Below are positions 47,686-50,566 of a DNA stretch of 64,000 bases, in pieces. Made by a program: the position numbers and the translations under genes. The DNA is taken from positions 186,001 through 250,000 of the forward strand of contig CAJXZO010000001.1 of assembly GCA_913062975.1 (NCBI GenBank). Reading direction: 5' to 3'. The notes beneath the pieces were generated by a model, which was not told the origin of the DNA, did not search any database, and saw only the letters and a program-made list of their open reading frames with translations. Numbering within the stretch: the first letter of the stretch is position 1; every line of letters starts with the position of its first letter. Origin of the DNA: an uncultured Micrococcales bacterium (GTDB lineage Bacteria; Actinomycetota; Actinomycetes; Actinomycetales; Microbacteriaceae).

Positions 47686-48585
47686 CTAGGTCCAACCCTT
47701 GACAAAGCTACGAAAGACATCTGGCTGGTCGGTAAAAACACCATCAAATCCAAGGTTTGCTAAAAATTCAAAATCCCTCGAAGCATCGATTGCCTGCTCA
47801 ATGCTTGCGGTGTAGGTGTAAACCAAGAGGCCTTTTTCCTGGGCCATGGATAAAACTTGGTTTTCAGAGATTTGCTCAAGATCATAATTTTGCAGAAACT
47901 GTGGCACTGCAAGTGAGATTCCATCGAAGTTATCTGCCACTGCATCTATAAACATCTGGATGTCATCAGGTGTTGTCGCAGGCTCAGCTAAAAACACATA
48001 ATTGGCAGTTGGCCCAATCAGCTCTTTGGCTCGGGTTAAGCCCCGCCAATCAAAACTCTCGATTGTGAATTGGTGATTCGCCTGTGGGTCCATCTGTGCA
48101 ATTTGAATTTCGCGTTGCAACATGCTCGGCAAATCAAGACCTATATCTAGAAAGTGATCGGGGTGCTTGAGCTCAATTACCAGGTGCCTGCCAAATAGCT
48201 CAGGTGTTGCCAATAAATCACCAAGGGTGGGAATCAGGTATTTTCCATCATGCTCAGCCGATTCAACCCGGTTTGGAAAACGCTCAATGGCTCTCAGTTC
48301 GAGAATCTCCCGTGAAGAGTAATCCTGTGAGAACCAGCCATGAAACTTCTCGCCATTAATGGTTTCTTCTCTCCTGCGGGATTCAAACTCAGGAAGTGCT
48401 GAGATGTTGGTTGTGGTGGATAGCTCTGGTTCGTGACGAATTATTAGTTGCTGGTCGCGTGTTGGAACAACATCAAACTCGACTGCATCGGCACCCATCT
48501 CAAAGGCCAATTGCATGGACTCAATTGTGTTTTCAGGTAAATATCCGCTTGCGCCACGATGGCCGATGACTTTCGTCACTCCCAT
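47686..48585 (-). CDS. Glycerophosphodiester phosphodiesterase
   Basis: [30 protein letters not shown]. Confidence 0.92.
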
Positions 48586-50129
48586 TCAATGGTCCCCGGT
48601 GGTTTGCTAGTGATATCCAAAACAACCCGATTGACATCACTGACCTCATTGGTGATGCGATTAGAAATCTTGGCAAGCAATGCATAATCAAGCCTTGACC
48701 AATCAGCGGTCATTGCATCCTCGCTGCTCACTGGTCTCAAAACGATTGGGTGGCCATAGGTTCTGCCATCGCCCTGAACACCGACCGATCTAACATCGGC
48801 CAACAAAACAACTGGTGATTGCCAGATCTCCTCATCCAGTCCAGCAGCTGTCAGCTCGTCTCTCACGATTGCGTCTGCTTCGCGCAATAGATCCAGTCTT
48901 TCTGCCGTAACCTCACCAATGATTCTGATGCCAAGACCCGGACCGGGAAATGGTTGGCGATTGACAATTGGTTCTGGCAGACCAAGTTCTCTGCCAATTT
49001 CACGAACCTCGTCTTTGAATAAGGTTCTCAGAGGTTCGACCAGTTCAAACTGCAGATCCTCTGGAAGTCCACCTACGTTGTGGTGGCTTTTGATTCCAGC
49101 AGTTGCACCACCTCCAGATTCGACAACATCCGGATATAACGTCCCCTGCACCAAAAACTTGATTTGCTTATTCTGCTCATTGGCTTCGGCAATTAGCTCT
49201 CGCTCTGCCTGCTCAAAACTTCGGATAAATTCGCTACCAATGCTTTTTCTTTTTTGTTCTGGGTCGCTAACTCCAGCCAAGGCATCCAAAAACTGCTTCT
49301 CGGCATTTACGACCTTGAGCTTGATTCCAGTGGCTTCAACATAATCGCGTTCAACCTGCTCGGCCTCACCTTTTCGCAATAGCCCATGATCAACAAACAC
49401 CGCTGTCAACTGATCACCAACGGCTTTGTGAACCAAGGCTGCGGCAACTGCCGAATCAACACCACCACTAAGACCACAAATGACCTTTGAATCTCCGACC
49501 TGAGACTGAATCTTTTCAACCTGCTCAGCGATTACATCCCCCGATGACCAGTTGGCTTCCAATCCAGCCCCGTGATACAAAAAGTTTTCCAAAACTCTCT
49601 GACCAAACTCGCTGTGTTTCACTTCTGGGTGCCACTGAACACCAAATATTTGTCTTTCAACTGATTCGAAGGCCGCCACCGGAGTTGTCTCAGTTGAAGC
49701 TAGAACCTGAAAACCCTCAGGTGCTTTGGTCACCTGGTCACCATGGCTCATCCAGCAAATTTGATTAGGTTTTTGATCACTGAGTAGCACACCAGGTTCA
49801 CTTAGGGTCAACTGAGTTGAGCCATACTCGCGCTTTCCTGAGTTATCGACAACTCCACCGAGGGCGTGCGCCAAGGTTTGAAATCCATAACAAATGCCTA
49901 AAATCGGAATCCCAAGTTCGAGAATCTGAAGATCCATCGAAGGCGAACCATCTTCATAAACACTTGATGGGCCACCACTTAGAATCAAAGCGGATGGGTT
50001 TTTCAGCATCAGATCTGCAGCTGAGATGTTGTGCGGGGCAATCTCAGAATAAATATTCGCCTCGCGAACTCGCCGGGCAATCAACTGAGCATACTGAGCA
50101 CCGAAGTCAATAACTATTACAGGTCTGAT
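48576..50129 (-). CDS. guaA: GMP synthase (glutamine-hydrolysing), likely non-AUG (ATC) start
   Basis: [30 protein letters not shown]. Extending the ORF track upstream from 50084 gives (I/M)[14 protein letters not shown], the conserved GATase N-terminus, starting at ATC 50129 (or 50132); AAAGGG SD at 50142-50137. Confidence 0.88.
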
Positions 50130-50566
50130 GATGCTGCCCTTTCAATCTCTGCAATCTCTTGTTTGGCAACCTTCGCATACCTTGCCTCTGTCCAAAAGCT
50201 CAGGAGAGGCACGATGCCACCAAGGGCAATCAACATAAATCTCCAAATGCTCCAGCGAAGCAATGTCCACATCCTGAAATCTACAAATAAATACAAAACA
50301 TATAGCCAACCGTGAACAATCAAAATAATTACCGTCAGGTTGAAACCCTCCAACGGCAGTCCATTGCCCTCATAGCCATAGTTTTCGAAGGTGATGAAAC
50401 CATTGGGGCCCAATAACCAAAGGTCGTAGCCCAAAAATGGAAGCCTTCTGATTCCCCAGGTGATCATCAAAAGAATCAGAAAGATTCCGGTGATATAACT
50501 GGAAACCTTGAACAGTTTCAGAGTGGATCTAATCTGGGGCAGGCGCGAGGCAGGAATTTTTGGCAC
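50117..50566 (-). CDS. DUF3817 family membrane protein
   Basis: 149 aa with three TM segments ([27 protein letters not shown]); characteristic guaA neighbourhood in actinobacteria. Confidence 0.8.

Follow-up and report, generated by a model that had tools for sequence, protein, structure and literature searches.

Probable AUC initiation of guaA in a Microbacteriaceae genome, and AUU or AUC codons at the guaA start site in related genera

The guaA locus

The window analysed here is a stretch of 64,000 nucleotides (G000:C1:186001-250000) from the genome of an uncultured bacterium, a 1.14 Mb draft in 32 contigs that is about 79% complete. In a guaA tree the window genome grouped with Aquiluna and with genomes G207, G015 and G096, among the Microbacteriaceae sequences. 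The gene for GMP synthase, guaA, lies on the minus strand downstream of a DUF3817 gene (Table 1).

The guaA product scored 763 bits against NF000848 (cut-off 400), with residues 4-517 aligned to model positions 1-512; it also exceeded the cut-offs of TIGR00888 and TIGR00884 and matched GMP synthases in the PDB. This full-length match above curated cut-offs places it in GuaA, the glutamine-hydrolysing GMP synthase, and its frame is open down to 48576. The DUF3817 gene overlaps the guaA start by 13-16 nt (13 nt when counted from ATC 50129). Its stop codon falls inside guaA on the same strand, a stop/start overlap of the kind found in translationally coupled gene pairs. The original prediction had named both genes from the nucleotide sequence, and Pfam and the GuaA models agreed with it.

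Table 1. Features of the guaA start region, in window coordinates.
Feature	Position	Strand	Remarks
guaA, glutamine-hydrolysing GMP synthase	48576..50129	-	intact; 517 codons counted from ATC 50129
DUF3817 gene, upstream of guaA	50117..50575	-	stop-to-stop frame; stop TAA 50119-50117; PF12823, 56 bits
ATC, most likely guaA initiation codon	50127..50129	-	no canonical in-frame start; SD-aligned spacing 5 nt; kept in L003 and L004
ATC, alternative initiation codon immediately 5'	50130..50132	-	in DUF3817 register aligns with sister-genus ATG; about 2 nt from SD core, less likely
GAAAGG, Shine-Dalgarno (SD) match to 16S tail ...CACCTCCTTTCT	50138..50143	-	best anti-SD match
TGA closing the guaA frame upstream	50142..50144	-	in frame; sequence reading
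TTG, first canonical start-type codon of the guaA frame	50082..50084	-	rejected: conserved N-terminus lost, no SD

On the minus strand the guaA frame reads TGA AAG GGC AGC ATC ATC, continues with AGA CCT GTA ATA GTT ATT and passes through the block encoding DFGAQYAQ (GAC TTC GGT GCT CAG TAT GCT CAG) to TTG. No ATG, GTG, TTG or CTG is in frame between the upstream TGA and the conserved GuaA N-terminus. The original prediction had described this gap for ATG, GTG and TTG, and its positions for ATC 50132 and 50129, TTG 50084 and the DUF3817 stop at 50117 were correct to the base. The AAAGGG that it had proposed as a Shine-Dalgarno sequence was confirmed at 50142-50137; the best anti-SD match, found with the 16S tail of the sister-genus genome G207, is GAAAGG at 50143-50138.

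The NF000848 match opens at residue 4 of a protein begun at ATC 50129. The initiation region (window 50070-50180, minus strand) folds less stably than 200 of 200 dinucleotide shuffles (z +2.1). An altered initiator tRNA was considered as an explanation and rejected, as the initiator tRNA is ordinary (CAU anticodon, GGG-CCC stem, C1-A72). From its sequence, translation of guaA very probably begins at AUC instead of AUG.

Start codons of guaA in the Microbacteriaceae

Upstream regions were compared for 108 distinct Microbacteriaceae guaA loci. ATT or ATC occupied the guaA start site in 45 of these loci, from 27 genera (the window genus and 26 others), a fraction that is not a family-wide frequency because the loci were drawn from best matches. 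Amnibacterium flavum (L013), with ATT, is a cultured example. When SD strength alone, over 150 nt, was used to pick the start, loci of high GC content gave noisy results, since GAGG-type runs occur in the coding part of DUF3817; taking the DUF3817 stop as the anchor gave a cleaner picture.

Across the census the type of start codon tracked the frame relation of guaA to the DUF3817 stop. With the stop in frame +1 the two genes overlapped as NTGA, and guaA started with GTG (39 loci), ATG (14) or TTG (3). With the stop in frame +2, 35 loci had an ATT whose last T is shared with TAG or TAA. GGAGG stood exactly 6 nt before this ATT in 30 of the 35, and in 26 of the 35 the ATT was followed by no in-frame ATG, GTG or TTG ahead of the conserved block. 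In ten further loci, those of the window genus among them, ATC or ATT occurred but the 1-nt overlap was absent. When the start label was placed by parsimony on a 59-sequence GuaA tree, seven changes were needed, of which supported branches make at least five unavoidable; shuffles gave a mean of 15.6. Start type is therefore clustered, yet it has switched several times.

These AUU and AUC starts could be a neutral by-product of the overlap with the DUF3817 stop and have no regulatory role. Such an explanation concerns the function of the starts, not their use, and is given slightly less than an even chance. A start that shares the T of TAG or TAA must itself end in T, which leaves AUU as the sole AUN choice. 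Each of the 35 overlapping ATTs belongs to an ATTAG or an ATTAA, frame +1 gives ATG, GTG or TTG through NTGA, and there were several switches, with both directions possible. The ATC starts that are free of the overlap constraint (window genus, L106, L115, L147, L151 and L159) are explained less well, and GTG or ATG solutions lie only one indel off, yet AUU has not been replaced in 26 genera.

Placement of the start

The two other genomes of the genus that were compared (L003 and L004) carry ATC ATC at the same place, so that the pair is present in three of three genomes. The guaA genes of the window and these congeners differ at 18-23% of nucleotides and at 56-63% of fourfold sites, which is near saturation. 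Conservation of the codon had been put forward with the original prediction as a check on an AUC start. The result supports that start, as do the ATT or ATC codons at SD distance in many relatives and the ATC of infC (see below).

In the frame of DUF3817, the bases of ATC ATC fall into two serine codons (TCA TCA). Conservation of ATC therefore proves no start by itself, and part of it could come from the overlapping gene. In the sister genus (G207, G015 and others, with Aquiluna sp. L044) guaA has an ATG that overlaps the DUF3817 stop as ATGA. The original prediction had counted an ATG at this column in relatives against its proposal; the ATG is there, and it is taken to be ancestral in the clade and not to refute the proposal. 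Where the sister genus has TGA the window genus has TCA: the G of the ATG is gone, and DUF3817 is extended by SSDL to a new TAA. The window genus would thus have arisen from the ATGA of the sister lineage through ATG to ATC, with the DUF3817 stop TGA becoming TCA and the stop moving downstream. The serine codons, the sister-genus ATG and the SD, GAAAGG being weaker than the GGAGG found in relatives with AUU, all weigh against an AUC start in the window.

Initiation at the first ATC (50132), or at both, is unlikely. ATC 50132 matches the sister-genus ATG in the DUF3817 register, but its aligned SD spacing is only about 2 nt, against 5 nt for ATC 50129 and 6-7 nt in the relatives. ATC 50129 is favoured because its spacing fits better.

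It is very improbable that GuaA lacks a start of its own and arises through a -1 frameshift that fuses it to DUF3817. The frames do overlap, and the guaA frame has no stop between TGA 50144 and the gene, but GAA AGG GCA GCA TCA TCA contains no in-register slippery heptamer (X XXY YYZ). Among relatives the frame relation varies (+1 or +2) and most loci have a clear start of their own; joining GuaA to a small protein that is probably bound to the membrane would also do harm. Still less credible is a start at TTG 50084, the first codon of the usual type. As the original prediction had stated, it would cost the conserved N-terminus of the amidotransferase: its first strand is lost, and so are the first 12 positions of NF000848, among them DFGAQYAQ, a motif that is conserved in PDB GMP synthases and present in some form in all 106 different relatives aligned. 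No SD precedes this TTG. There is a negligible chance that faulty sequencing or assembly has removed an ATG here, in spite of the draft state of the genome, because both congeners kept ATC ATC across the divergence given above.

From the sequence comparisons, the preferred reading, to which we give high confidence, is that AUC 50129 is a true start and that its use is probably coupled to termination of DUF3817. The site combines three features of starts of the infC, pcnB and sigR kind: no canonical in-frame start, an SD at initiation distance and a conserved codon.

Non-canonical starts elsewhere in the genome

Each of the 28 genomes compared for infC, the gene for IF3, had a start codon after an SD, which was ATT in two genomes and ATC in the others; the window genome (L214) and a congener (L210) were among them. 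In the window genome infC lies at G000:C1:13350-13844 on the minus strand, and its ATC follows AAGGAG. The negative control, pyrG, had a GTG start in most genomes.

In total, 751 orthologue pairs were compared between the window genome, of whose 1,136 kb about 897 kb were used, and the sister-genus genome G207. Many false candidates appeared when antisense frames were left in. With one frame per region 56 of the 751 pairs remained, and most of these were judged by eye to be out-of-frame readings of the preceding gene. Homology clearly ahead of any canonical start was seen by eye, after the automatic filtering, for guaA, rpoD, rimM and atpB. The short list argues against a general sloppiness of start codons; it is a lower bound, since genes with a chance canonical codon upstream were missed, infC being such a case.

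For rpoD (main sigma factor; G000:C3 about 80650, minus strand; L389, also L386, L371 and L373-L375) the apparent start was ATC GCT or ATC GCA. Six of six genomes from the Aquiluna-like clade, which takes in the window genus and its sister genus, had this ATC; other Microbacteriaceae genera had ATG GCN ACN. For rimM (G000:C2:136173-136770, L401; also L404, L405, L409, L411, L424, L429 and L430) no ATG, GTG or TTG lies near the conserved N-terminus. In many genomes of the family an ATT lies at, or overlaps, the 3' end of the KH-protein gene that precedes rimM; this case is less certain because the SD is weak. An apparent CTG start after AGGAG was found for atpB (ATP synthase A chain, PF00119; L279:6501-7343, minus strand; G000:C1 about 67340), where the sister genus has ATG. 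Within the window, a tryptophan 2,3-dioxygenase gene (PF03301; 28770-29588, plus strand) has a broken N-terminal part with in-frame stops, by pseudogenization or assembly error. It was rejected as a further non-canonical start because the gene is broken.

Discussion

Very few bacterial genes are known to use a start other than ATG, GTG or TTG, and annotation mostly misses such starts. AUU, AUC and GTC starts have been described for infC, pcnB and sigR, and guaA appears to be a new addition to these. No report of an AUU or AUC start of guaA was found in the papers searched, and the overlap of AUUAG or AUUAA with an upstream stop is an element that we have not seen described. In coupled overlaps of the ATGA and TAATG types the start also shares bases with the upstream stop, as in the guaA relatives; those relatives differ in that the start in AUUAG or AUUAA is non-canonical, and the window differs in the length of its overlap, 13 nt from ATC 50129.

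Like guaA, infC has a near-cognate AUN start with an SD, and in the window genome its codon is the same ATC. It is autoregulated by IF3, whereas GuaA is a metabolic enzyme, and no direct feedback loop is expected for guaA because GuaA cannot sense IF3. Escherichia coli pcnB, a gene unrelated to guaA, likewise has an AUU start, which holds its expression low; we know of no stop-start overlap at that gene.

Streptomyces sigR (PMC5472188) is an actinobacterial parallel, with a conserved non-canonical start, a strong SD, an operon context and a history of misannotation. It differs from guaA in that its start is GTC rather than ATC or ATT, and it is the first gene of its coupled pair, where guaA is the downstream gene. 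IF3 represses non-canonical starts such as the GTC of sigR, as experiments have established (PMC5472188); for guaA we infer such repression. In vitro, IF3 discriminates against pairing that is weak at the third codon position, as between AUU and CAU (PMC10158994).

At guaA, the Shine-Dalgarno sequence, which lies within the 3' end of the DUF3817 coding region, would place the 30S subunit, and AUC 50129 would be read by the ordinary CAU initiator tRNA, with pairing at the first two codon positions only. Ribosomes that terminate at the DUF3817 stop, a few nucleotides downstream of the AUC, would probably assist by reinitiation. The guaA start is likely to be sensitive to IF3, which would lower or tune GuaA synthesis by analogy with infC and sigR. 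Regulation through the non-canonical start of guaA, as the original prediction had suggested, may be expected on the same grounds.

The census suggests that many GuaA records from the Microbacteriaceae may have a wrong or truncated N-terminus. An essential biosynthetic enzyme with an AUU or AUC start in 27 genera and at least five switches of start type provides a natural comparative series on the retention of weak starts. Tentatively, and with rather low expectation, infC, guaA and rimM, together with rpoD in the Aquiluna-like clade, might form a small IF3-sensitive AUU/AUC set in the family. The level of IF3 or the fidelity of initiation would then jointly adjust GTP supply, ribosome maturation and the main sigma factor. 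The guaA start would tie IF3 to GTP synthesis in a manner that can be tested.
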